Shown here: positions 4,937 through 40,127 of the stretch, in pieces
Position numbering within the stretch: the first letter of the stretch is position 1
Layout of the letters: every line of letters begins with the position of its first letter
Virus record (IMG/VR): IMGVR_UViG_3300025141_000251
Coordinates: 1 to 40,127 of that record
DNA: 40,127 bases
From: a virus
Strand: one strand, 5' to 3'
Position numbers and translations under genes: made by a program
Notes under the pieces: generated by a model
Databases searched by the model: none
Seen by the model: only the letters and a program-made list of their open reading frames with translations
What the model was told of the DNA's origin: nothing

Positions 4937-4939
4937 GAA

Positions 4940-9332: not shown

Positions 9333-9923
9333 ATGAAAAAATTAATTTTACTCTTATTTACTATATTCGGGCTCGGGTCTGCCCTGGCATACGACTCTCC
9401 AAACGTTGAAGAAAAATCTAGCTTTCTAGAGAAGGCCATAGAATTTGTCTTGCCAAGTGCTAAAGCAGATGTGGGCCTAGTAGGCAGGTCTACATCTCTA
9501 GATAATCTTGGTGCTCTCCAGCCTGGATCTAGAGAAGTCTTCTACATTCATGTCAAGAATAACTCAGGGACTACTTATGCAGCAGGCTCAGGGATGATTC
9601 TGGACTATACTGCAGACGATGGGTACTCAGTCACGGGAACCACTTCAGTCACAGCTAGACCTCATTGTATGCTTCAGGAAAGTTGTGCGAATGGAAAGCT
9701 TTGTAAATGTCAGACATACGGCTATACAAGTCTCTTGCTCTTTGATGGAGATGGAAATGATGTAGCTGCAGCAGGAGACCCTATTTTTGCTTCAACAAAG
9801 ACAGCAGGCTATTTTATGGCCCTAGGAGTAGGTGATGGAAGTGCATCTGCTGAAAGTTGGGGAGTCTTTTATGATGCTTCCACGGCCTCAGGAGCAGTTG
9901 AGGCCTTTCTAGATTTAAGATAA
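9333..9923 (+). CDS. Exported protein coded after the capsid, possible decoration protein
   Basis: This 196-aa protein has a clear signal peptide (MKKLILLLFTIFGLGSALA, cleavage about residue 19). The mature domain has four or more closely spaced cysteines (HCMLQESCANGKLCKCQ), likely disulfide-bonded, and a Gly/Ala/Ser-rich C-terminal half. AAGGAGAAGG lies before the ATG. Its place directly after the coat gene is where decoration or cement proteins are often coded, but the export signal is unexpected for that. The next gene starts at its stop. The family is not recognised. Confidence 0.6.
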   Translation: MKKLILLLFTIFGLGSALAYDSPNVEEKSSFLEKAIEFVLPSAKADVGLVGRSTSLDNLGALQPGSREVFYIHVKNNSGTTYAAGSGMILDYTADDGYSVTGTTSVTARPHCMLQESCANGKLCKCQTYGYTSLLLFDGDGNDVAAAGDPIFASTKTAGYFMALGVGDGSASAESWGVFYDASTASGAVEAFLDLR

Positions 9924-11140
9924 TGAATATGAAGCTGCTTTTTCATATCTATTGGGGAGTGGGAGTTTTTCTCACTCCTCTATTTATTAAGGTCACTGAC
10001 CAGCCAGTCTCTCCAAGGTTTTCAAGAGACCAGCTCTTTTGCGCTCTTATAGCTCTGTCTGTAATCCTTTTTGGATTCTTCAAACCTTTGACTCAGACAA
10101 ATAAACATTTCTTAATATACACTTTGATAATACTGCCTCTGGCCTTTCTAAATAGGGCATACTTCAATTCAATTGAATACTGCCATCAATTAATCTGCTT
10201 CTTAGCAGGGCTAGTCTTAATCGCACAATTACTCTGCAATTTGGATTTTAAATACAAAAATATAATCAAGAATGCTCTGATTGCCACATGCCTGACTCAG
10301 TCTATCGTGGTTATTGTGGGGCATTTTTTCCATATAGACATATATAGAGAGCTGATTCTGGGCTCAAGTAAGACATTCTATTTTAAAGGATCTTATGCGA
10401 CTGCTTTTGGGACTGAAGGAAATCCGAATTCTACTGGAGGCCTTTTGGCCATGACTGTCCCATTCCTTTTAAAAACTCCATATCTATTACCTATCGGATT
10501 GATTGCTACAGGTTTGACTTCTACTATGCCTGTACTCTCCCTTTTAGCAGGGACTATTGCAGCTATCTGGATAACAGTATTCAAATGCAAGTTTAAGATT
10601 CCTGCTTTTATTCTAGGCTCAGGTGCATTCTTAGCAATTTGTTATTATTCCTATAAAGGAGTCCCTTACCTTAATGACTCTGGAAGGTTTAATTCCTGGA
10701 AGAATACCCTAACATTTTTCAAAAATAATGATTATGCATTCAAGTCTGAAGGCTATTGGATACTCTCAGATATTTATAATTATCTTTACCCTTACTACTA
10801 CAAGATAAAATACTACGTTTTTGGAAGAGGACTTGGATTCTTCTCAGACTTTTATTACAGAGTTTTTGGAGGAGAGGCCAAAATGAGGCAAGTTCATAAT
10901 GAATTTCTTGAGTATAGTCTTGCTTTTGGATTAATCGGAGTCATCGCAGCTCTGTGGTTTTTTTGGTCACAGAGAAAGAAGATAATAGAAGGAGACAGGT
11001 TATTCCTTTATTCATTCCTAGTGTCTTTGGCCAATTCTTTTGGAAATTTTCCTTACCATATTGCAAGTACGTCCTTGGTCGGAATCATGTCATTAAGCAT
11101 GATCCTAAAAGGGAAGGAAGGAGAGACCTGTGGCGCATAA
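9923..11140 (+). CDS. Polytopic membrane protein, O-antigen ligase/polymerase (Wzy_C)-like
   Basis: This 405-aa protein has about ten membrane segments. After a long periplasmic-type loop it carries VHNEFLEYSLAFGLIGVI at about residues 323-340, matching the H-N-x-x-L-E-x-x-x-x-x-G-x-x-G signature of the Wzy_C superfamily (O-antigen ligases and polymerases). A Gly/Asn-rich segment (FGTEGNPNSTGGLLAM) and GRFNSWKNT also fit. Such enzymes act at the periplasmic face on lipid-linked glycans. A phage copy could alter host O-antigen and block superinfection. It is odd to find it between capsid and tail genes. It overlaps the next gene by 11 bases. Confidence 0.65.
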   Translation: MNMKLLFHIYWGVGVFLTPLFIKVTDQPVSPRFSRDQLFCALIALSVILFGFFKPLTQTNKHFLIYTLIILPLAFLNRAYFNSIEYCHQLICFLAGLVLIAQLLCNLDFKYKNIIKNALIATCLTQSIVVIVGHFFHIDIYRELILGSSKTFYFKGSYATAFGTEGNPNSTGGLLAMTVPFLLKTPYLLPIGLIATGLTSTMPVLSLLAGTIAAIWITVFKCKFKIPAFILGSGAFLAICYYSYKGVPYLNDSGRFNSWKNTLTFFKNNDYAFKSEGYWILSDIYNYLYPYYYKIKYYVFGRGLGFFSDFYYRVFGGEAKMRQVHNEFLEYSLAFGLIGVIAALWFFWSQRKKIIEGDRLFLYSFLVSLANSFGNFPYHIASTSLVGIMSLSMILKGKEGETCGA

Positions 11141-12191: not shown

Positions 12192-14092
12192 TGCCTTTAC
12201 TAAAGAGAGGATTAAATTCCTGGAGATTTTCGGACTTGCCTGTCTCGTACAAGGTAAATCCCAAAAACCGCTCTACAGACGCTAGGAATGTCCTTTCTAA
12301 TCAAGGAGTCCTAGAGACTCGACCTGGATATACAAGATTTAATGATACGACTATAGAAGAGGGAAGGGATGTTACATCACTCTCTGCATTTAAGGACTTG
12401 TCAGACAATCTTTTGACAATTGCCAAAGTAAACACTTCTCTCTACAAAGTCCCGACATCGGGGGCATCTACTGCCATAAAGACAGGGTTAACTGTCAGCA
12501 AAAAACATAGGGCCGTCACGTTTAGGGACAGGCATCTCATCGTAGTTGAGGGAGATGGCGTCTTTCAATGGGATGGGACTACGTTTGGAGCATTAGGACA
12601 AGCTGGAGGCTCAGCTCCCACAGTAGGATCTTCAGGCGCAGGGAATACTCTCACAGCAGCAGACTATAAAGTAGCCTACACCTTCCACTCTACTACTACA
12701 GGATTCGAATCTAATTTGTCGACTGCGAGCGCTTTGGTCACTGTGGCATCTGGAGAGCAGATAGATATATCTGGAATGGATACCTCAGTAGGAAATTTTA
12801 CAATAGATAAAAAAAGGATATACCTCAAAGATATTACCAATAATTCTGCTTGGATATTTTGGGATGAGATAGACTTGGGGGATGCCGCAGATACTATAGA
12901 CGATGACCCTCTAAGCACTGATACCGCTCCGACCACTAACGGGACTCCTCCAGCAGATGCCAAATTTATAGTTACATTTGGGAAGTCTATTGCTTTGGCA
13001 GGAGTGAGCGCAAATCCTTCAGATGTTTTTATTAGCGAGCCATATATCCCAGATGCCTTTGACAACTCCAGGACATCAAAAACCATTAAGGCCAGTGGGA
13101 AAGGGCCTGTGACTGGGTTAGGAGTAGGCTTTTACGATAATGACAATCTGAGGCCATTCCTCTGTATTTTTAAAAGGAATTCTGTAGAAGTTTATTCTGA
13201 GATTGGAGGAATAAAGGACTTGGGACCTGCATCTACCAGCATAGGTTGTATTGGCCATGACACGATTGTAGAGGAAGCAGGTATTGTAAAATTTATGAGC
13301 ACTACTGGCTGGTATGAGATAGCTAATGGGCAGCTAAGAAAAAGGAAAGTTAAAGGGAGAGTCGTCCCTGCTGAGATAGCCGATGGAGATTTAATTGATA
13401 TATTTACTAGGCCGGGATATGTCTACGAACTTAATAAGACAAATTATTCGAATTTCTTCAGTGTCTTCTTTCCAGGATTTAAAGGCAATTACATGACATT
13501 TATCTCTGAGGGAGTAAGTACTACCCTGAGTAAGTGCTATAATTATGAGTTTGATGTAGGGGGGTTTAGGCCTCTGGAATTTGCTCTTAACTTTTTTGAT
13601 GCCGTCCATGCCGAGTTATCTACTGGAGAGGATGCTGTCCTTTTAGCAGGTGCTAACGGATTTATCTATAAGTACTCTATGGCAGAGGATAAGCATGATG
13701 TAGATATAGACAATGACTCAGTAGATATAGATGCCTTTTTTGATATGTTTTGGTTTACGGGGCAAGACTTTGAGTCATCTTATAATTTTGGCTCCCATAT
13801 AGTTAGGGCCGTAGAGGGAGATGACGACATCACAGTCAACGCCCACTTAGACTATGCCCAGAATACTTCTACTTCCTCCTCATTTAGCAGGACAGCCGAT
13901 GGTTTTCAGCTTGGCGTGTCAAAGCTTGACGAGGGAGTCCTTACAGATGGTCGAAGGGTAACTAGGAATATTTCAGAAATATTGAGGACAGGACAATCTT
14001 TACTTTTAAAGTACAGTCAAAGCGCCACAGATGCTAATATGAGTTTAATAGAGGGGCAAGTCCATGTCTCAAAAAATGGATGTCCTAATTAG
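12191..14092 (+). CDS. Large beta-rich tail protein, P22 gp10-like nozzle candidate
   Basis: This 633-aa protein starts at ATG 12191 in the preceding stop (TAATG). The N-terminus (WRFSDLPVSYKVNPKNRSTDARNVLS, then LETRPGYTRFN) is the typical opening of short-tail hub or nozzle proteins. The body has repeated beta-propeller-like segments (VTFRDRHLIVVEGDGVFQWDG, FITFGKSIALAGV-type, STTGWYEIANGQLRK). Residues about 140-260 resemble a Thr-rich Ig-like insertion. It would cap the connector and hold spikes or fibres. Confidence 0.6.
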   Translation: MPLLKRGLNSWRFSDLPVSYKVNPKNRSTDARNVLSNQGVLETRPGYTRFNDTTIEEGRDVTSLSAFKDLSDNLLTIAKVNTSLYKVPTSGASTAIKTGLTVSKKHRAVTFRDRHLIVVEGDGVFQWDGTTFGALGQAGGSAPTVGSSGAGNTLTAADYKVAYTFHSTTTGFESNLSTASALVTVASGEQIDISGMDTSVGNFTIDKKRIYLKDITNNSAWIFWDEIDLGDAADTIDDDPLSTDTAPTTNGTPPADAKFIVTFGKSIALAGVSANPSDVFISEPYIPDAFDNSRTSKTIKASGKGPVTGLGVGFYDNDNLRPFLCIFKRNSVEVYSEIGGIKDLGPASTSIGCIGHDTIVEEAGIVKFMSTTGWYEIANGQLRKRKVKGRVVPAEIADGDLIDIFTRPGYVYELNKTNYSNFFSVFFPGFKGNYMTFISEGVSTTLSKCYNYEFDVGGFRPLEFALNFFDAVHAELSTGEDAVLLAGANGFIYKYSMAEDKHDVDIDNDSVDIDAFFDMFWFTGQDFESSYNFGSHIVRAVEGDDDITVNAHLDYAQNTSTSSSFSRTADGFQLGVSKLDEGVLTDGRRVTRNISEILRTGQSLLLKYSQSATDANMSLIEGQVHVSKNGCPN

Positions 14093-17378: not shown

Positions 17379-19403
17379 ATGCCGCTAAATGAAGCAGAGC
17401 AAATCGAACTCCAGCAATTGCAAGAAGAAGAGGCCCAGGCCATACAGGCTCAAGGGCAAGAGGCGCAATCAGGACTTACTCCCGAGGAAGACTTTGAACT
17501 TCAGTCTTTACTTCAAGAGGAGCAGCAAGCTCAAACACAATTATCTCAAGCACAACCCGAACCTGCGCAAGAGGACCCATTAGCTCAATTTTCTGGGAAT
17601 CCAGAGGCAGAGTTAGGTCCTCTTAATAGGCTTCAATTCTCTATCGAGCCTTTGGAGTCAAATAGGAGAGCATTTCTCATTAAAAAATTTGGAGTAGAGA
17701 ATGTCCTTAGAGATGAGTCAGGGAATCTTTTTCTTCAGCAGTCAGGACAAATTAGACCACTAAATCAAGCAGGCTTCTCTCAGGCAGATATGGCCGAATT
17801 TTTGGGAGCAATTCCAGAGATAGTCGGAGCAGGGATAGGGATGGCAGCAGGCACTCCTGGAGGGATTCCCACTATGTTGGCTGGAGGAGCGGCTGGAGGA
17901 GTAGCTGGAGCAGCAGCAAGACAAGTCGTGAGCGGTCTTTTGACTGAAGTCCCTCAAGTGGATTTGCTGGATCCGTCTTCTGGAGAAAGAGCAGGAAATC
18001 TCTTATTGAGTGCTGGGCTCGGAGCATTTGGAGGGGCCATAGGAGCTGCTTCTAAGCAATTAGTCCAGGGAGTAGGTAAATTTATTGGCCCAAAGATAAC
18101 CAAGAGAGCTGCTGAGCTGACCACTCAAGCCGATGAGTTTGGTATCAAGCCTACTATTGGCCAGAAGTTTGGAGGCATAATAGAGAGACAAGAGAAGATA
18201 TTAGAGAAGATACCTTTCTTTGGACGCAAAGTGAGAAAAGAAATCTCTGAGCAGAGCAAGAAAATATATGAGACTCTCAAGCAAGAGATTGGAGATTTTA
18301 CAGGCATTGATAGAGTAGGGCCTGAAGTAGGGGCCGGGCTTAAGAAAGTAGTCACGTCAAAGATAGAGTCTATTAAAATGGGAGCCAGAGAGTTATTTGA
18401 GGACTTTGCTGAAAGAGGGAAGGATACCATCCTCAAAACTAACCAAGTCAAAAACAGCTTCCTCAATCGAATCGAGAAGTTTGGAGTTTATGATACTAAG
18501 GGACAGCCAGTCCCATTTAGTCCTAAGACAGCAGGACTTGAGCAATCTGAGTATAACGCAATCAGAAAAGTCTTAGACCCTATAATGGAGGATTTGAAAG
18601 AGACTCAGGTTAATGCCGTGGGACTCAATAATATTAGGAAAAGTTTAGATAAGGCCATCACTGTATTTCAGACAGAGGGAAGGGTAGCAGGAGTCAGTGA
18701 CGTTGCGATGCTTAAGATAAGATCCTCCTTTATGGATTCAGTCGAGAATGCCCTGGAGAAAAGAGGAGATGAGCTACTCCTCCAATTTAAGACGGCCAGG
18801 CAGATGTGGGCAGAGGCCATGAAGAATACCAAGTTAGCAGATGACTTAGGAGTCAATCTTGTCAATACGAAGAAAGTTTTGGCAGATGAGAAGGTATTGA
18901 GGAGAGTTATATTAGACTCAAAAAATTACGAGAAAGTCGTAGAATTGGTAGGAAAAGAGGATGCTGCTCAATTGGCAATAAAGGCCTTAGAGGACACGGC
19001 CAGAGTGACTGCTGGAGCAGGAGACCAATTCTCAGCAGCTAAGATTCTCACATTCCTAAATAAAAATAATGAAGTTTATAAAAGGGCCTTTGGAAAAGAA
19101 AAGGTCAATAAGCTGGCAGGTCTCCTGGATTTCGCTAAGCAGAATCATGTCCCAGTAAATCCATCCATGACAGAGGTAACTCGACTCCAGGAAATGAATC
19201 TCAGGACATTAGGGACAGGAATCACTTTAGGGACTTTCAGGGCATTACTTGAAGGGGCCTTAAAAATGCCTGCCAAAATAGGGACAGGCGCTCGAGCATT
19301 AATTCAGACAAGAGGACAGGAGCCAAAAAGAAGACTGTCATTCCCATCTGAAGAAGAGGAAGAAAAACCCAAAAAGGGTCTAAATATAAATAAGAGAAAA
19401 TAA
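17379..19403 (+). CDS. Large internal virion / DNA-ejection-type protein 3
   Basis: This 674-aa protein starts with a Gln/Glu-rich N-terminus (residues 1-75). A Gly/Ala-rich hydrophobic stretch (about 140-230, GAGIGMAAGTPGGIPTMLAG type) could insert in membranes, as in proteins that build the trans-envelope DNA channel. The C-terminal two thirds are helical, and the tail is charged (EEEEEKPKKG). No lytic transglycosylase motif is visible. Position after two other ejection-type genes supports a gp16-like role. Confidence 0.55.
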   Translation: MPLNEAEQIELQQLQEEEAQAIQAQGQEAQSGLTPEEDFELQSLLQEEQQAQTQLSQAQPEPAQEDPLAQFSGNPEAELGPLNRLQFSIEPLESNRRAFLIKKFGVENVLRDESGNLFLQQSGQIRPLNQAGFSQADMAEFLGAIPEIVGAGIGMAAGTPGGIPTMLAGGAAGGVAGAAARQVVSGLLTEVPQVDLLDPSSGERAGNLLLSAGLGAFGGAIGAASKQLVQGVGKFIGPKITKRAAELTTQADEFGIKPTIGQKFGGIIERQEKILEKIPFFGRKVRKEISEQSKKIYETLKQEIGDFTGIDRVGPEVGAGLKKVVTSKIESIKMGARELFEDFAERGKDTILKTNQVKNSFLNRIEKFGVYDTKGQPVPFSPKTAGLEQSEYNAIRKVLDPIMEDLKETQVNAVGLNNIRKSLDKAITVFQTEGRVAGVSDVAMLKIRSSFMDSVENALEKRGDELLLQFKTARQMWAEAMKNTKLADDLGVNLVNTKKVLADEKVLRRVILDSKNYEKVVELVGKEDAAQLAIKALEDTARVTAGAGDQFSAAKILTFLNKNNEVYKRAFGKEKVNKLAGLLDFAKQNHVPVNPSMTEVTRLQEMNLRTLGTGITLGTFRALLEGALKMPAKIGTGARALIQTRGQEPKRRLSFPSEEEEEKPKKGLNINKRK

Positions 19404-19555
19404 TGGATATCTCAGTTAAGATGGCCATAGAAATAGTAGAGAGGATAGGCTTTCCCATCTTAATCTGTATGTGGTTTATGTTCCGCAATGAGAAGAAGCA
19501 AAATAAGATATTAGAGATATTGGATGATATCTCTTCTCATTTGGAGGGAGAATAA
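19403..19555 (+). CDS. YvrJ/holin-like tiny membrane protein
   Basis: This 50-aa protein starts in the preceding stop (TAATG). It has an N-terminal amphipathic helix, a membrane segment with ERIGFPILICMWFMF, and a charged C-terminal helix (KKQNKILEILDDISSHLEGE). The GFPI core followed by a charged helix resembles the YvrJ family and small phage holins. It precedes another tiny membrane protein and the candidate endolysin by three genes, so it may belong to the lysis cassette. Confidence 0.55.
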   Translation: MDISVKMAIEIVERIGFPILICMWFMFRNEKKQNKILEILDDISSHLEGE

Positions 19556-19680
19556 TGGACTGGGTAATAATAACTGTAATACTTGTCGTCATGCTTGCCT
19601 TCAATATAAAATGCGATTATCATTTTTACAAAAAAGCTAATCAATGCAAGAGTAGGATTACTAAACTTAAAAAAGGATAG
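19555..19680 (+). CDS. Tiny membrane protein
   Basis: This 41-aa frame starts in the preceding stop (TAATG). Residues 3-17 (WVIITVILVVMLAFNI) form one membrane segment; the rest is basic with two cysteines. Its overlap with the YvrJ-like gene suggests translational coupling and a joint role, perhaps as a holin pair. The family is not recognised. Confidence 0.5.
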   Translation: MDWVIITVILVVMLAFNIKCDYHFYKKANQCKSRITKLKKG

Positions 19681-19683
19681 GTA

Positions 19684-20250
19684 ATGGTAAATTTAATTCA
19701 AAAGCAGACAATGGTCTGTAAAGAGACTTACGAAGTAGCGGTACTTTTCAAGGATGTAATGGATTCCATTACAGATGCCTTGAAAGACGGGAAGTTTGAG
19801 GCTCATGAAATCCCTAAGCCAATCGTGGCGGCCATGGGTAGACTTGATGCTGCTGTAAAAGACATCAAGGGAGTAGGGGCAGAATTCCAGGAGCATTCAG
19901 CTCTTGCTGTAAATTCCCTGACAGCTCCCCTTCTAGAAGCTGCTGACAATCTTATTCGAGTGCTAACTGGAAAAGAGGCCGTAGACGAGACTCTTTCTCT
20001 GGCCGCTGCAGATGCAGGCCTTGGGGCAGCAAAAAACGCCCCGACAGAAGGGCCAGCAGAGGTGCACTCTCTAGCTGCTTCTGCAGGACTTGGCACTGTG
20101 AAGGAAGTTGAGAAGCCTCAAAAGAAGAAAAAGAAAGCTGGTAAGAAAGTGGCAAAATCGAAAAAGAAGGGCAAGAAAAAAGCAGCTAAAAAGAAGGTAG
20201 CAAAAGCTGGAAAAAAGAAGAAAAAAGCCAAGAAAAGAAAAGTAGCTTAA
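19684..20250 (+). CDS. Histone H1-like protein with lysine-rich tail
   Basis: In this 188-aa protein, residues 1-135 form a helical, Ala-rich, mildly acidic domain. Residues about 138-188 are almost only Lys, Ala, Gly and Ser (KKKKKKAGKKVAKSKKKGKK and on), like bacterial Hc1/H1-type tails. It would bind DNA without sequence preference, so it may condense phage DNA or coat host DNA. The neighbours are lysis-type genes, so expression is probably late. AAGGATAGG precedes ATG 19684. Confidence 0.6.
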   Translation: MVNLIQKQTMVCKETYEVAVLFKDVMDSITDALKDGKFEAHEIPKPIVAAMGRLDAAVKDIKGVGAEFQEHSALAVNSLTAPLLEAADNLIRVLTGKEAVDETLSLAAADAGLGAAKNAPTEGPAEVHSLAASAGLGTVKEVEKPQKKKKKAGKKVAKSKKKGKKKAAKKKVAKAGKKKKKAKKRKVA

Positions 20251-20760: not shown

Positions 20761-21115
20761 AGAGGAAAAATATCTGAAAACCTACCCAGAAGAAAATGCC
20801 CTCATAAGTAAAGCAGCAGCAGATCCAGTCTCCTCAGTGAGTAATGCAATCGACTCCGTGGCCAGACTTGCTATGAAGATAATTGACAGAAGTCATACAA
20901 TTCCTCAAAAAAAGAAAGATGAGTTTAAAGAGCTTTACTTTGAATATCTCAATGCCAAAAACCAAATGAAAAAAGAGGCAAGGGCAGGAGAGAATCCTTA
21001 TGGAGATGTAATCCTGGAGCTTGCTGAACATGCTATAAAAAAGAAAAATGAATTTGCTAAATATTCTGACATATGGGCAAAAGAATTAGATGCCGAACCT
21101 CCTAATGAAAATTAA
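20753..21115 (+). CDS. Small helical protein under the structured leader
   Basis: This 120-aa soluble protein starts at TTG 20753, six bases after AAGGAG. It is mostly helical and charged (IIDRSHTIPQKKKDEFKELYFEYLNAKNQMKK), with no cysteine and no membrane segment. Its start codon lies in the closing helix of the RNA leader. The HNH gene begins within its last codons. The family is not recognised. Confidence 0.6.
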   Translation: MSLEEKYLKTYPEENALISKAAADPVSSVSNAIDSVARLAMKIIDRSHTIPQKKKDEFKELYFEYLNAKNQMKKEARAGENPYGDVILELAEHAIKKKNEFAKYSDIWAKELDAEPPNEN

Positions 21116-21569
21116 CAATCACGACCATCCCTTGTACTCAACCTGGATGTCTATGAGAAATAGATGCAGTAATCCTAATAACTCAAGGTATGAAGATTGG
21201 GGAGGTAGAGGGATTAAGGTATGTAAAAGATGGGATGACTTCTCACTATTTGCAAAAGATATGGGAGAAAGACCTGAAGGCTGTACTCTTGATAGGATAG
21301 ATAATTCAGGGGACTATACTCCTGAGAATTGTAAGTGGTCTACTTTTTCGGAGCAGTCAAATAATAAGCGAATTTTAGTTACAAATAAGTCTGGATACAA
21401 TGGGGTCTGTTTTGTAAAAAAAAGTAGGAATTGGAATGCAAGAATCACAATTGAAGGTATTAGATATGAGATTGGCAGATTCGAGTCAGCCTTGTATGCT
21501 TATCTTCAATATTGCAAAGTATATCTTGAATGGTATGGATACTATCCAAAGGAATACAAATGGGCATGA
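21090..21569 (+). CDS. HNH homing-type endonuclease with AP2-like C-terminus
   Basis: This 159-aa protein opens with YSTWMSMRNRCSNPNNSRYEDW, then GGRGIKVCKRWDDFSLFAKDMG, EGCTLDRIDNSGDY and PENCKWST, a well-known phage HNH pattern. SGYNGVCFVKKSRNWNARI to SALYAYLQY is an AP2-like DNA-binding domain. It is probably a selfish free-standing homing endonuclease. Neither ATG 21090 nor in-frame ATG 21105 has a good ribosome site; the gene overlaps its upstream neighbour, as an invader would. Confidence 0.8.
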   Translation: MPNLLMKINNHDHPLYSTWMSMRNRCSNPNNSRYEDWGGRGIKVCKRWDDFSLFAKDMGERPEGCTLDRIDNSGDYTPENCKWSTFSEQSNNKRILVTNKSGYNGVCFVKKSRNWNARITIEGIRYEIGRFESALYAYLQYCKVYLEWYGYYPKEYKWA

Positions 21570-24170: not shown

Positions 24171-24350
24171 ATGTTTCAAAAATCTGAGATCTGGGATGTA
24201 TGTGAGCATTGTGGGATAGAATTCGAAGGAATCATCCCATCATGTAAATGTTATGGTTTATCCCAGAAAGAGCTATTTGTTCTAAAAGAGCAAGAAAGGA
24301 AGAGAAGAGTTGAAAGGTCTAGAGTGGCGAAGGATAAGGGAATATCCTAA
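24171..24350 (+). CDS. Tiny zinc-finger-like protein
   Basis: This 59-aa frame starts at ATG 24171, seven bases after GAGGAG. It has CEHC at residues 11-14 and CKC at 25-27, a possible zinc site, followed by a basic helix (KEQERKRRVERSRVAKDK). It is the first gene of the rightward early block. The HNH gene starts inside its end in another frame, suggesting that insertion shortened or overprinted it. Confidence 0.6.
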   Translation: MFQKSEIWDVCEHCGIEFEGIIPSCKCYGLSQKELFVLKEQERKRRVERSRVAKDKGIS

Positions 24351-24891
24351 TTATTTTGTGAGCAATAAAGGGGATGTCTATAGCCTTGGGTTTACAGCAG
24401 CTAAATCTAGGATTCTTAGGCCTGCTAAACTTAAAATAGGGTATTTGGCCGTAGTTCTATGGAGGGATGGGAAAAAGAGGACATCCTATATTCATAAGCT
24501 TGTAGCTGAGGCATTCTTACCAAAGAGAGAGTGCAGACAAGTAGCCAATCATATTGATGGAGATAAGCTTAATAACTGCTTTGAAAATTTAGAATGGGTT
24601 AGCTATTCAGGGAATATATCCCACGCCTACTATCATGGATTAAGAAATAAAAGGGCCAAAATAACTGGGAAAGAATATACAACTATAGATAGACTATTTT
24701 TTGAAGAAAATATGACCCCAAAAGAGATAGCAATAATTTACAATGTATCTGATACTACAGTAAGAGATGTCTTAAAAAGAAAGTTAAAAGGAAACCCTTT
24801 CCAAAGCCCACGATATATAGAATTAATACGCAATCGAATATTAGTCAGGAGGCAAAATGAACGACTTAGTAAACTCAGAAGTAAAAATTAA
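24310..24891 (+). CDS. HNH endonuclease with NUMOD4 domain
   Basis: This 193-aa protein starts at TTG 24310. Residues 4-27 (LEWRRIREYPNYFVSNKGDV) are the NUMOD4 motif. HKLVAEAF, then VANHIDGDKLNNCFENLEWVS at about 76-97, is an HNH_3 nuclease core. A C-terminal helix-turn-helix (MTPKEIAIIYNVSDTTVRDVL) would bind DNA. It is a free-standing homing endonuclease that overlaps genes at both ends (by 41 and 35 bases), so it was inserted in a compact operon without breaking it. Confidence 0.85.
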   Translation: MKGLEWRRIREYPNYFVSNKGDVYSLGFTAAKSRILRPAKLKIGYLAVVLWRDGKKRTSYIHKLVAEAFLPKRECRQVANHIDGDKLNNCFENLEWVSYSGNISHAYYHGLRNKRAKITGKEYTTIDRLFFEENMTPKEIAIIYNVSDTTVRDVLKRKLKGNPFQSPRYIELIRNRILVRRQNERLSKLRSKN

Positions 24892-27019: not shown

Positions 27020-27309
27020 GTGATTTCTATATATGGATTTTTCTTTTTGTTCTGAGACTTGTAATGATGCCTTCTGTGAAGAGTTTTTGGAGGCATCAAA
27101 TGAGCAGGATTGATGAGTGGTCTTACCATGTAGGAATTCTTCTGGGAATGTCCAGCCTAGGTGAGATTAGAGGCTATCACTCAGATAGGAGTGGGCCAGA
27201 AGAGGCAAAAAAGAAGCTTGAGGCATTAGACTTTGCCTTGAAAGATATCGCAGAAGATTTTTATAAACCCTCTCCAGAATATGTGCTACATTGCAAATCA
27301 AGGGAGTAG
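27016..27309 (+). CDS. Small membrane-anchored early protein
   Basis: This 97-aa protein has an N-terminal membrane segment (FYIWIFLFVLRLVMM), then a soluble helical part (EEAKKKLEALDFALKDIAEDF). Its last 10 bases, including the stop codon, lie inside the tRNA-Gln gene, so processing of the tRNA would cut this messenger at its stop. The function is unknown. Confidence 0.5.
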   Translation: MSDFYIWIFLFVLRLVMMPSVKSFWRHQMSRIDEWSYHVGILLGMSSLGEIRGYHSDRSGPEEAKKKLEALDFALKDIAEDFYKPSPEYVLHCKSRE

Positions 27310-27374
27310 CTCAGTGGTAGAGCATCGGGTTTTGATCCCGAGGGTCGCTGGTTCGAATCCTGCCTTCCTTGCCA
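27300..27374 (+). tRNA. tRNA-Gln (anticodon TTG)
   Basis: The 75-nt cloverleaf has acceptor AAGGGAG/CTTCCTT (one G-T), D stem GCTC/GAGC, anticodon stem TCGGG/CCCGA with loop TTTTGAT, and TTCGAAT T loop. The T stem has one T-T mismatch (GCTGG/CCTGC). Discriminator G is followed by encoded CCA, which fits glutamine. It reads CAA codons, which are common in these genes. Confidence 0.9.
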
Positions 27375-27386: not shown

Positions 27387-28139
27387 GTGACTCCTTTCAA
27401 AAATAAGCATCAAAAAATCAAAATCCCAGAATTCATAGCTGTAGGAGATATAGCAGGAAGATTTGATGAGCTTATGAATCTTATCGAGAAAGCTCCAGAT
27501 GTCCCATTAATCTCACTTGGAGATACAAATGATAGAGGTCCTAAATCTAAAGAGGTACATGAGTACCTAATGAGCAGAGAGGATTCATATACTATTTTTG
27601 GTAATCATGAGCATATGTTTTATGATTTTTACCGTCCTTTAGGCAGCCGAGGCTTTTATGATAGAGAGCTTTGGAAGGCCTTCAATGGAGGGATAAATAC
27701 TCGCTGGTCTTATGGAGAAATGCCTTTCTATTTGAATGACTCTGGAGCTTTTGAAAAAGGCCCTATCGGAGTCGATATGGAAGCAGTAAATAAGACGCTG
27801 GATTGGTTTGAGACTCTCCCATGGATAATTGAGACAGAGGATTGCTATCTTTCCCATGCTGCTCTTTTCAAAGACCTATCAATTGATAGATGCCTAAACG
27901 AGGGAAAGTGGGCAGGAGATAGTTACAGGATGGGTACATCAATTCTATGGAATTATCCTTCTTTTCCAAAAGAGAGAGAAAAATTTCAGATCCATGGACA
28001 TCATGCAAATGATACTCCTGTCTGGTATGGAGAGAAAGATTCTAGATGGGGCGTGGATCTGGATACATCAAGAGCTGGAGTACTTACTGGAATGCACTGG
28101 CCATCAAAAGAAATTTTCATATCTGAATATATCTCATAA
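27387..28139 (+). CDS. Metallophosphoesterase, PPP-type, with a missing metal-ligand histidine
   Basis: This 250-aa protein starts at GTG 27387 after AGAGG. PPP-family motifs in order: VGDIAGRFDEL at 19-29, GDTNDRG at 45-51, GNHEHM at 72-77, LSHAALF near 155-161 and IHGHH near 202-206. The first motif is normally GDxHG; here the histidine that binds a metal is alanine. It resembles phage lambda-type protein phosphatases or ApaH-like enzymes. It might be altered in activity, or the motif may have drifted. A terminator lies 70 bases downstream. Confidence 0.75.
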   Translation: MTPFKNKHQKIKIPEFIAVGDIAGRFDELMNLIEKAPDVPLISLGDTNDRGPKSKEVHEYLMSREDSYTIFGNHEHMFYDFYRPLGSRGFYDRELWKAFNGGINTRWSYGEMPFYLNDSGAFEKGPIGVDMEAVNKTLDWFETLPWIIETEDCYLSHAALFKDLSIDRCLNEGKWAGDSYRMGTSILWNYPSFPKEREKFQIHGHHANDTPVWYGEKDSRWGVDLDTSRAGVLTGMHWPSKEIFISEYIS

Positions 28140-28210
28140 GGCCTATGCTTCGTGGCCTAAGATTTCTCTGGCCATCCAAAAATAAATCCTTTTAAATCTT
28201 AGAAATTAAA

Positions 28211-28243
28211 AAAAAAGCCCCGACTCATAATCAGGGCTTTTTT
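28211..28243. terminator. Intrinsic terminator, usable from either strand
   Basis: AAAAAAGCCC (28211-28220) pairs with GGGCTTTTTT (28234-28243) over a 13-base loop. It ends the early operon on the + strand. Because the stem is flanked by A and T runs, it could equally end a minus-strand transcript from the structured region to its right. Confidence 0.85.
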
Positions 28244-28668
28244 GATATCTTTTATGTGAGTGAAGCACAATAAAGATGGACATGAATACCCATCTATTTA
28301 CCACTCACATTCAAGAAATCAAGCAAAATTTACTAGAAGAAAAGATTTAATAAAGGGCCTAGGGGGCAAGGGATACTGCCTATAGGGAAGCAATGAGGCC
28401 CATGCGAACCTTACAATGTATCTGGCCGATGTGCGATGAGCGACAGGTATTGTCGTATTATAAACTGCGTATCGTTCGACCACTCCAGAAGTCCACGGAA
28501 AGACTGCTGCGAAGCAGACAAGGAATGAGGGCATACACCCGTATAGGAGTGCGAGGAGACCAGCTCGTAGATAACAGGAATAGCTTAAGGTTTGAAAAAT
28601 TCAAACTGCTTTCCTAGGCTGGATGGCCTTCTATGCTCAAAGCTCAAGGTATTGCGAGTAGTTAAGTA

Positions 28669-28698
28669 TTTACAAACGTAATACAACCCATATATAAT
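28669..28698 (+). promoter_or_regulatory. Sigma70-type promoter before the tRNA-like element
   Basis: TTTACA (28669-28674) and a perfect TATAAT (28693-28698) are 18 bases apart. The start would fall at about 28705, at the 5' end of the tRNA-like element. On the minus strand the same area can be read as TTGAGC with 17-base spacing to TATATA, so leftward transcription into the structured region is also possible. Confidence 0.6.
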
Positions 28699-28703
28699 GA
28701 TTT

Positions 28704-28779
28704 TGAGAGGACAGCTCAATCGGTGAGAGCACTGGCCCCACCAGCTAGAGGTTTGTTGGTTCGAATCCAACCCTCTCAA
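28704..28779 (+). tRNA. tRNA-like element with abnormal anticodon loop
   Basis: The acceptor TGAGAGG/CCTCTCA is perfect, the T arm GTTGG-TTCGAAT-CCAAC is canonical, and the D arm is GCTC/GAGC. Three bases instead of two separate acceptor and D stem, and position 8 is A. The anticodon stem CTGGC/GCTAG (one G-T) has loop CCCACCA, which lacks T33 and a purine at 37; CAC would be the formal anticodon. There is no encoded CCA. It is probably not a normal decoding tRNA: degenerate, a decoy, or a processing signal. Confidence 0.5.
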
Positions 28780-28800
28780 TATTTCAAATGGAGAATTAAG

Positions 28801-28989
28801 ATGGGAATGGCACTTGCCAATAAAATTAAAACAAATCTCTGCAAAGTTAAGAAGAAGAAAAAGAAGAGGACTATTTCCACCAGAATAGATCCAGATGTCC
28901 TAGAGTCTCTTGATAAGAGATGTAAAAGGGATGGATTGATAAGATCTGCAGTAATTGAAGAGCTGGCCAGGGAATATGTAGCATCATAG
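28801..28989 (+). CDS. Ribbon-helix-helix DNA-binding protein
   Basis: This 62-aa protein starts at ATG 28801, seven bases after GGAG. A basic N-terminus (KVKKKKKKR) leads into TISTRIDPDVLESLDKRCKRDGLIRSAVIEELAREYV, a CopG/Arc-type ribbon-helix-helix. It would bind DNA as a dimer to inverted repeats, so it is a candidate regulator of sites such as the dyad at 24030. It follows the tRNA-like element from the same promoter. Confidence 0.75.
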   Translation: MGMALANKIKTNLCKVKKKKKKRTISTRIDPDVLESLDKRCKRDGLIRSAVIEELAREYVAS

Positions 28990-29350: not shown

Positions 29351-29804
29351 CAGCTTAGTCAGTATTATTTCTATCCTATTCCTAGTCTTAGCTCTAGGAG
29401 GATGCGCTTCTAAAGCTAAACAAGTTGACATGGAGAATATTGGTATGGAAAAGAAGCTCAAAGAAGATCCCGAGACAATTGGAATGATATTCTTCTCTAC
29501 AGGAGATTCTGAAGTCCATGAAAGATTCATATACACGCTAAGGAATGCCATTGATGCTGCGAAAGCTAACCCACATGTAATTATCAGTTTGGTCGGACAT
29601 AGTGATGCTAGAGGAGATACTCCTCTCAATTATAAGCTATCAGAAGACAGAGCAGTAAGCGTAAGGGGAAAACTCATGAACATGGGCCTAGAATCCCACA
29701 GGATTGAAATTAACAGCATAGGCAACGCTATTCCACTAGATCCAGGTCAAGGACATTCTCCATGGGCAAGGAATAGGAGAGTAGATATCAGGATCAAGTA
29801 CTAA
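29343..29804 (+). CDS. Pal/OmpA-like peptidoglycan-binding lipoprotein
   Basis: This 153-aa protein starts at ATG 29343 after GGAGG. The lipobox LGGC puts the lipid on C21. The OmpA_C domain follows: FFSTGDSEVH, then LVGHSDARGDTPLNYKLSEDRAVSV with D88 and R103 in the peptidoglycan (diaminopimelate) binding positions, and ARNRRVDIRI at the end. It would sit in the outer membrane and hold the cell wall, like Pal. A phage copy could compete with host Pal, help outer-membrane disruption at lysis, or change phage entry. Confidence 0.85.
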   Translation: MINSLVSIISILFLVLALGGCASKAKQVDMENIGMEKKLKEDPETIGMIFFSTGDSEVHERFIYTLRNAIDAAKANPHVIISLVGHSDARGDTPLNYKLSEDRAVSVRGKLMNMGLESHRIEINSIGNAIPLDPGQGHSPWARNRRVDIRIKY

Positions 29805-30846: not shown

Positions 30847-31181
30847 TGTCTTTTTATAATTACTGTATTGAAAATAACCTGAGGGCCTTACATGCTATTG
30901 GATCTCCTACTCTTAAGCACATGGAGAGACTTTATATTGCAAAAGAGTCTGAGCTAGGACAAAAGGCCCAGGAGATATATCAACTAAAAGAAGAGATTGA
31001 AGATTTGAAAAGGGAGAGAGATGGATTATTACGAGATGCTAGGAATAGCGAAAGATGCGACCCAGAAGGAGATAAAAGCAGCTTACCGGAAATTGTCGAA
31101 GATCCATCATCCAGACAAGGATGGGAGCCCGAAAGTGATGGGACAGGTAAACGAAGCTTACCGGATACTCTCAGATTCTAA
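30846..31181 (+). CDS. Coiled-coil protein overlapping the J-domain gene
   Basis: The frame is 111 aa from ATG 30846. The first 58 residues look like real protein: a helix, then a coiled coil (AQEIYQLKEEIEDLKRERDGLL). The last 50 residues overlap the J-domain gene in another frame and have the low-complexity look of an out-of-frame tail (SERCDPEGDKSSLPEIVEDP). It is either a true long overlap, or a gene once shorter or once fused to the J-domain. Confidence 0.5.
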   Translation: MSFYNYCIENNLRALHAIGSPTLKHMERLYIAKESELGQKAQEIYQLKEEIEDLKRERDGLLRDARNSERCDPEGDKSSLPEIVEDPSSRQGWEPESDGTGKRSLPDTLRF

Positions 31182-31632
31182 AAAGAGAAAAGATTACGAT
31201 GACGGCAAGCCTGAAGAGGTAGAGGAAAATAAGGCAAGAGGTCTTGTCATGAAAGTCTTCTCAGATGTCTACCCTAAATTTATTGAGGATCCTAAAAAGA
31301 ATAATATCTTAAAGATGGTTAGAGAATTGCTTATGGACCAGGTGACTAGAGCGATAGAAGGGATAGAAGCGTCAAATAAAATGATAGAAAATACTGAGGA
31401 GAGTTTAAAAAGGCTCGAAGATTCTCCTTTACTGGAGGGCGCTCTCCAAACCACAATAAACCAATTGAATAATGAGAAAATCCGCTGGGATGAGGACAAG
31501 GAAGAGGCCGAGGAGGCATTGGGATTGATTGAGGATGGAAAATATAAGATAGACAGAGAGGCTTCTCTATCTGACTTCGGTGCGCAAGACAGTCAGGTAA
31601 GGGGAGGAGTGTTTGGAAAGAGGTATTTCTAA
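31021..31632 (+). CDS. J-domain (DnaJ-like) co-chaperone
   Basis: In this 203-aa protein, residues 1-65 form a full J-domain: DYYEMLGIAKDATQKEIKAA, the HPD motif at 30-32 (IHHPDKDG), then VNEAYRILSDSKKRKDYDD. There is no Gly/Phe region or zinc domain; the rest is an acidic helical extension (KEEAEEALGLIEDGKYK). It would bring host DnaK to a phage target, for example capsid or replication complexes. The start lies in the preceding gene after GGGAGAG. Confidence 0.9.
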   Translation: MDYYEMLGIAKDATQKEIKAAYRKLSKIHHPDKDGSPKVMGQVNEAYRILSDSKKRKDYDDGKPEEVEENKARGLVMKVFSDVYPKFIEDPKKNNILKMVRELLMDQVTRAIEGIEASNKMIENTEESLKRLEDSPLLEGALQTTINQLNNEKIRWDEDKEEAEEALGLIEDGKYKIDREASLSDFGAQDSQVRGGVFGKRYF

Positions 31633-34992: not shown

Positions 34993-35427
34993 ATGAGTTT
35001 TTTAGATGGGAATAAGGAGGATGGTAAGCACTATTGGCTTACTCCTCCCGAGTTAATGAAAGATTTGAATCAAGAATTCCATTTCGACTATGACCCCTGC
35101 CCATATCCCTTGCCTGAAGGGTATAATGGACTCATATCAGATTGGGGGCTATCTAATTGGGTCAATCCTCCATTTGGGTCATTTCTCATGGATGGAAAGA
35201 AGAAAGGACCCACTGCTTGGGCCAGGAAATGCATTGAGGAATACAAGCAAGGTAAAAAAGTAGTGATGGTTTATCCAATTGATAAGTGGGTCCTAATGCT
35301 TCTTGAGCATGCTTCTGAGGTAAGAAATCTTAAAGATGTCAAGTGGCATGCAATTGAAGATGGATCTCGAGGCAAAGGACTAGGGAGACATATAGCCTGT
35401 TTTGTTTTAGATCCATCCAAAAAATAA
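34993..35427 (+). CDS. Phage DNA N6-adenine methyltransferase (Dam family)
   Basis: This 144-aa protein starts with WLTPPELMKDLNQEFHFDYDPCPYPLP, then LSNWVNPPFGSF with the NPPF catalytic motif at about 58-61. This is the compact Dam-type family of phages. The C-terminal part (KKVVMVYPIDKW) completes the fold. It methylates adenine, perhaps to mark DNA against restriction or to time packaging, since it lies between terS and terL. Its 3' 270 bases recur nearly unchanged at position 1 of the window. Confidence 0.8.
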   Translation: MSFLDGNKEDGKHYWLTPPELMKDLNQEFHFDYDPCPYPLPEGYNGLISDWGLSNWVNPPFGSFLMDGKKKGPTAWARKCIEEYKQGKKVVMVYPIDKWVLMLLEHASEVRNLKDVKWHAIEDGSRGKGLGRHIACFVLDPSKK

Positions 35428-35439
35428 GGTAGGTATGCC

Positions 35440-37116
35440 TTGCAGGAGATATTTAATTATTATTTCTATGCAAGGCACTTCCTAAAAATCCAGACTAAGA
35501 TAAGTGGTATCCAGCCTCTCCATCTTAGGAAATATCAAATTAAATTTATTCAATTCTGCCAGAGCATAAAAGGGCCTGTAAGAGTAATTATAGTAAAGCC
35601 TAGGCAGGCAGGATTCTCTACCATTGTCTCCTCCTGGTTTTTTCACATGATGGCCACAGACTCAAACTTTAAAGGATTGGGGATGGCAGATAAGAGTGAT
35701 AGGACTCTATCTATCAGGAAGATATATTCTTTCTTTCTCCAGCAGCTCCCTCCTGCTTTAATTCCGATGATAGCTAAGAATAATACAAAAGAGATTGAAT
35801 TTGATAATCCAGACTTTAATGCCAGATTGACTAATCCAGGTCTAGCTTCTGGGATTAAGTTTGAGACTGCTCTGGATCCGAATGCTGGACGGTCAGAGTC
35901 CAGGAAATTTGCCCATCTATCTGAGAATGCCTTTTATCTTTATTATACTGAGATTGATGACGGGGTCCAAAACTCAATACCTTTAGTAGATGGGACATTC
36001 ATTGCCAAAGAGTCCACGGCCAATGGAAGAGCAGGTACAGGCAGGCCTTTTTATCTTCTTTATAATGCAGCTAAGAGGAATGAGACTATCTATAAGCCTT
36101 TTTTTGTGGCCTGGTATGAGGTAGATGACTATGCCATTAATCCATTAAAAAAGCCTGCATTGACTAAATACGAGAAGGAGATAATGAAGCAATATCCTCT
36201 CACTCTGCAGAATTTGATGTGGCGTAGGCTTAAAATTATGGAATACTTGAATGATGAGGAGGAGTGCTACTTGACACCTGAAGAGAGATTTAAGCAAGAT
36301 TTTCCTTTGTCAGATGAGGAAGCATTCCTCCATACAGGACAGCCTGTCTTCCCTCATGAGGTAGTAAATAAACTAATTAGCAGTCTGACCAACTTTAGGC
36401 CTAACGACATAAAAGACCGACTGAAAATAGACGACCAAGTGCTCAGACAATTCTGGGACCAATTATCTATCTATACGCCACAGAGAAAAGGAAAGACATA
36501 TTTTATCGGGGCAGATGTGGCAGAAGGGCTTGCTCAAGGAGATAGCTCCTCTGCTTATGTAATGGACCAGGACTACGTCCAGGTAGCTAAATGGCATGGG
36601 AAGATAGATCCAGATATGTTTGGTCACTTATTGATTGCTTTAGGGATGCTTTATAATGACGCACTCCTAGTAATTGAGAATAATAATATGGGCCATACTA
36701 CGATAACCACGGTCAAGAATAACTATTATCCAAGAATTTTCTCCCAAACTGTAGAGGATAAGAGGACTAAGAAAAAGAGCACCAGGCTTGGCTGGATGAC
36801 TACAGGCCCATCAAAGAATGACATGATAAACGAGGGAATAGCTCGGCTTAGAGATGGGAATTCCAAAATCCTAGATATTGCTCTCCCTACTCAAATGTCT
36901 ACAGTGACCAGAGGAGAGAATGGAATAGTAGAGGTTAATGGGAAAGATAGAGTCGTTGCATATTGTCTGGCCTGTATAGGTCGAGCGCAGTACAGTACGT
37001 CCATACGAAGAGGTAATAACAGGAGGCCATTAGCTGGCCGTATAACTACGGGACAGAGCGCACATGACCGGTGGGCAAGGCAAAACAAAAAGGGAAGCCA
37101 GGATATTTTTGATTGA
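35440..37116 (+). CDS. terL: Terminase large subunit (right copy)
   Basis: This 558-aa protein starts at TTG 35440 with the same leader as the left copy. Walker A-like KPRQAGFST, HLSENAFY, GADVAEGLAQGDSS and ENNNMGH are all kept, so both copies should be active. Differences cluster in the first 45 residues, at scattered surface positions and in the C-terminal 50 residues (SIRRGNNRRPLAGRITTG here). Most base changes are silent. It overlaps the next gene by one base. Confidence 0.95.
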   Translation: MQEIFNYYFYARHFLKIQTKISGIQPLHLRKYQIKFIQFCQSIKGPVRVIIVKPRQAGFSTIVSSWFFHMMATDSNFKGLGMADKSDRTLSIRKIYSFFLQQLPPALIPMIAKNNTKEIEFDNPDFNARLTNPGLASGIKFETALDPNAGRSESRKFAHLSENAFYLYYTEIDDGVQNSIPLVDGTFIAKESTANGRAGTGRPFYLLYNAAKRNETIYKPFFVAWYEVDDYAINPLKKPALTKYEKEIMKQYPLTLQNLMWRRLKIMEYLNDEEECYLTPEERFKQDFPLSDEEAFLHTGQPVFPHEVVNKLISSLTNFRPNDIKDRLKIDDQVLRQFWDQLSIYTPQRKGKTYFIGADVAEGLAQGDSSSAYVMDQDYVQVAKWHGKIDPDMFGHLLIALGMLYNDALLVIENNNMGHTTITTVKNNYYPRIFSQTVEDKRTKKKSTRLGWMTTGPSKNDMINEGIARLRDGNSKILDIALPTQMSTVTRGENGIVEVNGKDRVVAYCLACIGRAQYSTSIRRGNNRRPLAGRITTGQSAHDRWARQNKKGSQDIFD

Positions 37117-37304
37117 TGGAAAAAATAGCAGATAAATTCACTACAATCATGCAGCAAGCTCAACATGACCGCCATTTCCAAGATGCATGGAGGACTTATA
37201 CAGTCATGATAGAGGATATTGGATTCTTCTTCTTCTGTGGGGGTCTAATGTTTATTGCGCTGGGAATATTTTTTATCATGAAGATTCTAAAGGTTTTTAA
37301 ATGA
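37116..37304 (+). CDS. Tiny single-pass membrane protein A (right copy)
   Basis: This 62-aa protein starts at ATG 37116 in the terL stop, the same length as the left copy. It keeps DKFTTIMQ-x-AQHD-x-HFQ and the IGFFFFCGG membrane motif. The change of several membrane residues to other hydrophobic ones shows selection on the segment, not on exact sequence. The paralogue follows with an ATGA overlap. Confidence 0.7.
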   Translation: MEKIADKFTTIMQQAQHDRHFQDAWRTYTVMIEDIGFFFFCGGLMFIALGIFFIMKILKVFK

Positions 37305-37477
37305 ATAAGGAGATACTCCAAAGGATTTTCCATGAGCATCACTTCCAGAAGATGTGGAGAGAATTCCTAGCAATAGGAGAGAATATCGGTTTTTTCTTTA
37401 ATTGCGGGGGCTTTTGTTTCATAGTTATAGGAGTATATTTTATTACGATTACGCTTAAAAAAGGGAATGACTTATGA
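37301..37477 (+). CDS. Tiny single-pass membrane protein B (right copy)
   Basis: This 58-aa protein starts at ATG 37301 in the preceding stop and ends inside the next start (ATGA). EFLAIGENIGFFFNCGGFCF is identical to the left copy, and the tail (TITLKKGNDL) differs. The conserved half includes the membrane entry and the cysteine pair, so these residues are likely to matter for assembly. Confidence 0.65.
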   Translation: MNKEILQRIFHEHHFQKMWREFLAIGENIGFFFNCGGFCFIVIGVYFITITLKKGNDL

Positions 37478-38337: not shown

Positions 38338-38350
38338 ACAGGAGAGTTAT

Positions 38351-38692
38351 ATGAAATTTTTATTATTGTTTTTAGTCCCATTTTCGTTAATGGCAGAAAT
38401 GCCAGTAGTTTTTAAAAAAGGGATGATAATCAATTGTCCTATTACCATGAAGCCTATCTATAAGTTTGTAAAAACTCTCCGAGAAGGAGACTCGGTAAGC
38501 TCAGACAGATTGATAGATTTGGAGACAGGGAAAAAACCTCTTCCAGATGAGCCTTTTAAATGTGACTCTGTCATTATTGGCTGGTCAGGAGTCTGTATAT
38601 TCTCTAATCAGGGATGGAGGCCAAAGAAATGCCAAAAGCTGATTAGAGCTACCTATTCGTTTGTACCCATCATAGACCGTCCTCAAAGGTAA
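38351..38692 (+). CDS. Small exported cysteine-containing protein (right copy)
   Basis: This 113-aa protein starts at ATG 38351 after GGAGAG; the longer frame from 38327 has no site. Signal peptide MKFLLLFLVPFSLMA. Four cysteines and FVKTLREGDSVSSDRLIDLETG are conserved with the left copy, with changes mostly at the mature N-terminus and the last 12 residues. The role is unknown. Confidence 0.65.
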   Translation: MKFLLLFLVPFSLMAEMPVVFKKGMIINCPITMKPIYKFVKTLREGDSVSSDRLIDLETGKKPLPDEPFKCDSVIIGWSGVCIFSNQGWRPKKCQKLIRATYSFVPIIDRPQR

Positions 38693-39040: not shown

Positions 39041-39255
39041 TGCAAGAGAATTTTAAATGGAAAGAAAGAGATTATAGGATAGAGAGGGGGCATGCTTCTG
39101 CTCTCAGGAAGGCTTGGAAGAAAAACAGTAAAAGAGTCTTATATAAAGGTCAGGAGTTTGAGAGTATCAGAGCATTTTCTAAGCATTTGGGTATTTCTTA
39201 TACTAAAGCAGTAGGAATGGTAAAAGATGGGAAGGCCAAGAAGATTCCCAGTTAG
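39040..39255 (+). CDS. Small basic HTH-like protein (right copy)
   Basis: This 71-aa protein starts at ATG 39040 in the preceding stop. ALRKAWKKNSKRV and FESIRAFSKHLGISYTKAVGMVKDGK align with the left copy. Its stop TAG (39253-39255) overlaps the stop of the convergent zinc-ribbon gene, so here there is no spacer at all, unlike the left copy with its extra 275 or so bases. Confidence 0.55.
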   Translation: MQENFKWKERDYRIERGHASALRKAWKKNSKRVLYKGQEFESIRAFSKHLGISYTKAVGMVKDGKAKKIPS

Positions 39256-39800
39256 GAGATGTTTTGGAGTAAATCTTGGCCAGCTTCTTTGACTTCAGAC
39301 CTTTCCTTGTCATCCATGGCACTGAATGTCCGGCTTCCCTCATGTACCATTGATTCTGCTGTGGCCTTCAAATGTTTATCGTCTTTATGGAGGTTTTTGA
39401 GGTATTCAGCTTCTCTATCAGAGAATTTATCCTCTTTGTCTAAGATGTCGTAAATCTTTTTCAATCTCTTGTCATTAAAGTATTGAGTCCTGGAGAATCC
39501 CTCTTCCTCGGGTAAATCTTCATATCCTACCTCTTGGAGTCCCATTATCTTTAAATGGGCCTTGTATTCTGAATAAGTAGCGCAATGCTTTCTAATATTT
39601 CTTTGGAATCCCGGGCTAAACCCGTCCTTTGCTGTCATGCTTGACTTAACTACTATCATTTTCGGGAAGCCACACTGGAAGCAGGATATTCCAGGAACAG
39701 CTCCATACTGGAGCCTTTCGAATTCCAGCTTGGGCCAATATCTTAAAAATTCTTGATTGCATTTCGGATTACGACATTTGAGCCGATATGATTTTGACAT
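39252..39800 (-). CDS. Zinc-ribbon phage protein on the opposite strand (right copy)
   Basis: This 182-aa protein has the same length as the left copy. Cysteines 9, 14, 40 and 43 are kept, as are PGFQRNIRKHCATYSEYKA and the acidic C-terminus (DKERSEVKEAGQDLLQNIS). Differences are few and conservative. Strong conservation next to a highly variable gene suggests a core role in this phage group. Confidence 0.7.
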   Translation of the reverse strand: MSKSYRLKCRNPKCNQEFLRYWPKLEFERLQYGAVPGISCFQCGFPKMIVVKSSMTAKDGFSPGFQRNIRKHCATYSEYKAHLKIMGLQEVGYEDLPEEEGFSRTQYFNDKRLKKIYDILDKEDKFSDREAEYLKNLHKDDKHLKATAESMVHEGSRTFSAMDDKERSEVKEAGQDLLQNIS

Positions 39801-39803
39801 GAA

Positions 39804-39856
39804 TGAAGTCTAATATTGTACTTCATTTTATTAAGAGATTTTCCGGTAACGGAAAA
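39804..39856. promoter_or_regulatory. Two conserved dyads in the divergent gap (right copy)
   Basis: TGAAGT 39804-39809 with ACTTCA 39820-39825, and TTTTCCG 39839-39845 with CGGAAAA 39850-39856 (loop GTAA). The stems match the left copy exactly and the loop of the second differs. Confidence 0.5.
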
Positions 39857-39895
39857 AGAAAGAGTATTCCTGTCTATTGCATTTAGACTATTGCC

Positions 39896-40127
39896 ATGGC
39901 AGAAAATAACTCCGCATCAAAAGCTATCGTCAAGAAGGATGAGCAAGACCCTAAAAAGCTCACAGATGATGTCCATAAGCCTCTAAAGAGGTATAGGAAG
40001 CAATTTGAGCCTGGCTGGACTAGGGAAGAATCAGCTTACTATGGAGATATCTGGAGGAATAGAAATCAATTCCGACCATACGAAAATACTATTTTTGAGA
40101 TTATAGAGGGAGCGGTCCCTATCCTGA
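39896..40127 (+). CDS. Portal protein, 5' part only (right copy)
   Basis: The first 77 residues are in the window: MAENNSASKAIVKKDEQDPK and onward to EGAVPIL. It matches the complete portal at 5032 with a few changes (EQD for EKD, DDVHKP for DEVFKP). It is cut by the window end, not broken. Confidence 0.85.
   Translation, partial: MAENNSASKAIVKKDEQDPKKLTDDVHKPLKRYRKQFEPGWTREESAYYGDIWRNRNQFRPYENTIFEIIEGAVPIL

Follow-up and report, generated by a model that had tools for sequence, protein, structure and literature searches.

GOLLD and ROOL RNAs are encoded in phages or prophages and are often found near phage tRNA islands (PMC12286853). Many GOLLD members are longer than 800 nt, and their 3' region is universally conserved (PMC12286853). 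Candidates for structured RNAs have also been picked among long GC-rich intergenic regions, the GC-IGR approach (PMC6429828).

Here we describe a locus that resembles these systems in part. It lies in a phage record of 40,127 bases (IMGVR_UViG_3300025141_000251), hereafter the window, in which almost all genes are on the plus strand. Like GOLLD and ROOL loci, the gap at 28140-28702 is a phage noncoding region near tRNA-type elements, and like GC-IGR regions it is long, GC-rich for its genome and devoid of coding signal. An earlier note had interpreted it as a large noncoding region. Our analysis supports this and shows it to be exceptionally long and GC-rich for its genome, the signature used for choosing candidate structured RNAs. 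However, no relatives of the gap were found, so the comparative-structure step that comes second in the GC-IGR approach fails here (PMC6429828). The agreement with GOLLD and ROOL is confined to the phage setting, the tRNA neighborhood being thin. Neither family gave a covariance-model match. Compared with GOLLD, the locus is far shorter (a gap of 563 nt with a body of ~290 nt), its body has no helix excess and no tRNA island is present. From ROOL it differs in a fold no better than that of shuffled sequence.

Results

The window encodes a P22-type portal, an SU10-type major capsid protein and a large terminase, and its source is a marine podovirus of roughly 35 kb. The ends of the window are repeated at 84-87% identity (1-2293 with 35159-37445, 3161-3482 with 38340-38658, and 4388-5263 with 39252-40127), and therefore the genome is most likely circularly permuted, about 35 kb in length, with the overlap joining two strains. 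Both end versions are present on separate contigs (L004 and L005). Terminase profiles led to the nearest relatives, a set of at least 15 uncultivated viral contigs whose portal, capsid and terminase proteins share ~34-68% amino-acid identity with those of the window; terminase profiles run on bacterial genomes yielded no near relative. tRNAs are missing in the near relatives, the exception being the tRNA-Gln of L011. The variable-region genes of the window (9923-11140, 21090-21569, 24310-24891, and 31021-31632) include an apparent multi-pass membrane protein, a DnaJ-domain protein (PF00226) and two HNH-like endonuclease candidates, judged by sequence.

The gap lies between a NinI-like phosphatase gene, with its stop codon at 28139, and a tRNA-Val call (28703). 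Its 563 nt make it the largest noncoding stretch of the window, in which noncoding DNA totals 1.8 kb of 40 kb and the second largest stretch measures 142 nt. It is flanked by the following features.

27387-28139, plus strand: upstream gene for a calcineurin-like, NinI-like phosphatase (Pfam PF00149, E 6.2e-9; PHROG 246, E 1.9e-27)
28703-28780, plus strand: tRNA-Val(CAC)-like element (ARAGORN; Rfam 39.6 bits and alignment)
28801-28989, plus strand: ribbon-helix-helix (RHH; CopG/Arc-like) regulator, first gene of the downstream unit (Pfam PF01402, E 2.3e-6; PHROG 18157)

ORFs within the gap run from 24 to 74 codons, and their codon scores were measured against those of spurious ORFs taken inside known genes. 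Four were considered as genes and rejected, since each scored within the spurious-ORF range: 41 aa at 28260-28385 (plus), 71 aa at 28319-28534 (minus), 74 aa at 28393-28617 (plus), and 32 aa at 28206-28304 (minus). Sliding codon scores were negative or close to zero in all six frames, and no gap ORF had a credible family match in Pfam or PHROGs. Together, these results uphold the earlier claim of a long gap without a convincing gene. The gap had also been placed between two tRNA-type elements, which is true only loosely. The tRNA-Gln at 27300-27374 is a good call, but it lies 766 nt before the gap, beyond the phosphatase gene, and the tRNA-Val call is doubtful at 39.6 bits. In the Rfam alignment this element carries C33 and C37 and lacks U8, and it may be tRNA-like or a degenerate tRNA instead of a decoding tRNA. 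Thus, one distant tRNA-Gln and one doubtful tRNA-Val are present near the gap, and no tRNA island.

The gap is composed of two unlike parts, a 5' part at 28140-28349 and a 3' part, the body, at 28350-28640. The 5' part holds three structures.

28157-28202, no strand assigned: imperfect hairpin with a 9-bp perfect stem (CTAAGATTT / AAATCTTAG), from the inverted-repeat search and stem count
28211-28243, minus strand: intrinsic terminator, bidirectional (z -5.75 on minus, -4.2 on plus)
28242-28322, no strand assigned: long hairpin with 21-nt arms that are 86% complementary and an inner 6-7 bp hairpin, AGATGG...CCATCT (inverted-repeat search)

Folding energies were compared with those of dinucleotide shuffles. 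The 5' part has MFE z scores of -5.0 (plus) and -5.6 (minus) and contains four perfect stems of at least 8 bp, compared with 0.6 in shuffles. This strong fold is due to the terminator and the adjoining long hairpin. On the minus strand, the terminator reads from 28243 to 28211 as a GC-rich stem of 15 pairs followed by TTTTTTTTT (T9; -18.7 kcal/mol), and on the plus strand it has 12 pairs and T6 (-13.2 kcal/mol). Two G-U pairs in the minus-strand stem are mismatches on the plus strand, which leans toward use of the terminator by a leftward transcript. A terminator at 28211 had been proposed before and is indeed present; the suggestion that it could end a leftward transcript gains some support from the better pairing and longer U tract on the minus strand. 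The long hairpin (z -5.0 on plus, -5.43 on minus) was matched in stability by none of 300 shuffles and is likewise more stable on the minus strand, at -29.1 versus -24.5 kcal/mol. As in phage intrinsic terminators between convergent units, a GC-rich stem lies between an A tract and a T tract and could in principle serve both strands. Unlike in such terminators, an unusually long second hairpin follows here, and then an unexplained GC-rich stretch of 290 nt.

The body and one motif within it were recorded as follows.

28350-28640, no strand assigned: GC-rich noncoding body of atypical composition (GC, codon, Markov and fold tests)
28504-28517, plus strand: CTGCT-GCGA-AGCAG, a possible GNRA hairpin (sequence)

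The GC content of the body is 49%, compared with 40% for the genome, a level that 1.35% of equal-size windows reach. Under a third-order Markov model, these are the least typical 291 nt of the window (0 of 275 windows scored lower). The plus strand is purine-rich (A87, C61, G81, T62), and no frame carries a codon signal. There are no perfect stems of at least 8 bp in the body and three of at least 7 bp, against 1.8 expected from shuffles. Its MFE z scores are -1.75 (plus) and -0.73 (minus), and the adjoining phosphatase gene scores -2.06. As E. coli rnpB reaches -2.92 and the genuine tRNA-Gln of the window only -0.12, the folding energy of the body does not decide for or against a functional RNA. 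The longer interval 28240-28702 scores -2.9, mostly because of the separate hairpin at 28242-28322. The "at least nine helices" counted by eye therefore hold up as a stem excess in the 5' part and not in the body, and the description as ornate lacks support, as neither the folding nor the stacking of the 290-nt body exceeds that of shuffled sequence. The reported GNRA hairpin is there as sequence, whereas the predicted fold takes another register, a 4-bp stem with a GAA loop. A 9-bp long-range pair that would close the gap (28170-28178 with 28620-28628) was rejected as compatible with chance, because the 563 nt contain five stems of at least 8 bp compared with 2.2 in shuffles, a number reached by 3 of 25 shuffles.

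Two promoters were assigned at the 3' edge of the gap.

28669-28698, plus strand: strong sigma70-type promoter, TTTACA-18-TATAAT (11/12), directed into the tRNA-Val-like element and the RHH gene (promoter scan)
28691-28719, minus strand: weak candidate leftward promoter, TTGAGC-17-TATATA (8/12; consensus score)

The plus-strand promoter is the best of the region, and with usual spacing transcription from it would start at ~28705, in the first bases of the tRNA-Val-like element. Promoters for both directions near 28690 had been claimed; the rightward one is strong and the leftward one weak. In addition, a weak plus-strand promoter (TTGATA-18-CACAAT) is found at 28242-28271, and a minus-strand TATAAT at 28462-28457 has no matching -35 element.

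At Rfam gathering scores, only tRNAs were detected in the whole window. With permissive filters, the GOLLD, ROOL, OLE, group I and II intron, tmRNA, and RNase P models gave no match at E<=10 on either strand of 27900-28900, and ARAGORN found no tmRNA. The search with these models that the earlier note had proposed was thus negative, and the suggested kinship with GOLLD and ROOL fails both here and, for GOLLD, on size. Non-tRNA Rfam matches at E<0.1, to leader and sRNA families, were rejected as terminator-hairpin catches far below gathering scores (Phe_leader, 32 of 55 bits). Some short motifs had looked RNase P-like on inspection, but this idea was given up for want of a matching RNase P model.

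Searches for similar DNA in 50,697 phage, 72,556 plasmid and 20,395 E. coli records returned only short chance matches. The region was not found in the at least 15 related phages by blastn, tblastx or a single-sequence covariance model, R1. Run over 406 kb of relatives plus 48 viral records, R1 scored 244.9 bits on the window and had no other match, the window itself serving as the positive control in one of the two runs and the other having none among its targets. Two scans with 15-mers, scored on the flanks, covered all viral contigs and gave an identical contig as the only true match. All further copies of the region that were found, including by way of the neighboring protein in viral contigs, are identical.

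Noncoding stretches were also seen in related phages. At ~12336-12545 of L102 (G003, IMGVR_UViG_3300048090_000138), a noncoding stretch has a long closing helix and the tRNA T-arm motif GGCGGTTCAAATCCGCC; the interval 12325-12736 folds with z scores of -4.8 and -3.6, and the stretch has no Rfam or ARAGORN match. It is a better structured-RNA candidate than 28140-28702 of the window. The L135 contig (G017) has a noncoding stretch at 29441-29696 with 49% GC in a 41% GC genome and the T-arm motif GTGGGTTCGATTCCCAG, with no tRNA call. A 600-nt gap at 19378-19977 of the L132 contig (G014) contains tandem direct repeats (TAATTATTAGATAC and AAGTCGGGACA) together with a terminator, an arrangement like that of an origin or operator.

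Discussion

The features of the gap provide good support for a boundary between transcription units, marked by a bidirectional terminator, a hairpin and a new promoter. The rightward phosphatase operon would end at the terminator at 28211-28243, and the next rightward unit, with the tRNA-Val-like element and the RHH regulator, would start from its own promoter at 28669-28698. Our tentative preference is that this boundary encloses an orphan noncoding stretch, the 290 nt in between most likely belonging to a lineage-specific noncoding transcript that runs leftward for ~480 nt. Such an RNA would start near 28684 from the weak promoter overlapping the rightward one, pass through a moderately folded body and then the hairpin at 28322-28242, and end at the strong minus-strand terminator. 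This transcript, whose 3' end would be protected and which would converge on the phosphatase operon, may work as an sRNA or antisense-type RNA and would not be a self-assembling ornate RNA. The gap, its lack of coding signal, the terminator, the hairpin, the rightward promoter and the unusual composition are observed, whereas we infer transcription of the body, its direction and any function. In favor of a noncoding transcript are the size of the gap, about four times that of the next, the raised GC content and atypical composition of the body, and the lack of a codon signal. A leftward RNA fits the anatomy best, because both the terminator and the hairpin are more stable on the minus strand, a candidate leftward promoter is present, and convergent units would be well served by a terminator that is strong in both directions. 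However, the neighboring genes are without exception rightward, and the terminator may therefore do no more than end the phosphatase operon. The leftward promoter is weak (8/12), the slightly better fold of the body on the plus strand (-1.75 vs -0.73) points the other way, and the searches gave no homologue in which conservation would show. The evidence on direction thus conflicts, as the anatomy of the 3' end favors leftward transcription, whereas the fold and purine bias of the body favor rightward transcription.

The body may instead be a relic, foreign or decayed DNA such as a lost moron gene or mobile element that was inserted between two units, has been retained by chance and is non-functional as RNA, with ordinary flanking signals. 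Its atypical composition, its lack of a helix excess, the failure to match any phage, plasmid or E. coli record, and its absence from all related phages, whose middle region varies, speak for a relic. However, phage genomes as compact as this one, with 1.8 kb of noncoding DNA in 40 kb, rarely keep 300 nt of junk; moreover, Pfam, PHROGs and tblastx show no protein trace, and the GC content is raised instead of drifting to AT. We regard a relic as somewhat unlikely. Rightward transcription offers another explanation, in which a structured RNA or long 5' leader begins at ~28279 or by read-through of the terminator, covers 28280-28700 and runs on through the tRNA-Val-like element to the RHH gene. 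The purine-rich plus strand, its slightly better fold (z -1.75 for the body and -2.9 for 28240-28702 with the hairpin included) and the weak promoter at 28242-28271 agree with this, but most of the -2.9 is owed to the separate hairpin, no plus-strand terminator lies between 28640 and 28703, and with the strong promoter at 28669 no start further upstream is needed. A rightward RNA is distinctly unlikely.

An element that acts as DNA and not as an RNA gene, for example an origin of replication, an operator or a packaging site, would account for the long near-palindromic hairpin and for the adjoining RHH regulator, which would need an operator. We see this as very unlikely, since there are three short two-copy direct repeats and no iterons, the packaging genes are 7 kb away, and no GC-skew switch occurs here; the origin reading was rejected on the iteron and skew evidence. 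The chances are smaller still for an undescribed class of ornate, self-assembling RNA of the GOLLD/ROOL kind. A noncoding, GC-rich phage region near tRNA-type elements would agree with the frequent location of GOLLD and ROOL near phage tRNA islands (PMC12286853), but one doubtful and one distant tRNA form no island. In addition, Rfam gave no match even at E<=10, the body folds like shuffled sequence, ~290-480 nt compares with >800 nt for many GOLLD members, and at least 15 related phages contain no homologue.

Returning to the leftward transcript at a unit boundary, it is unlikely, though less so than a rightward RNA, that 28684-28206 (or 28280-28660 if read rightward) represents the first known example of a phage RNA class not yet described, one that combines a GC-rich body with a structured 3' end and is restricted to a thinly sampled marine podovirus lineage. 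The lesson so far is that "many helices" seen by eye can stem from a terminator and one adjoining hairpin, with the larger body indistinguishable from shuffled sequence. Should the stretch be transcribed, a further phage noncoding RNA specific to one lineage would be known, and the finding of such RNAs from gap length and composition alone could be tested on it.
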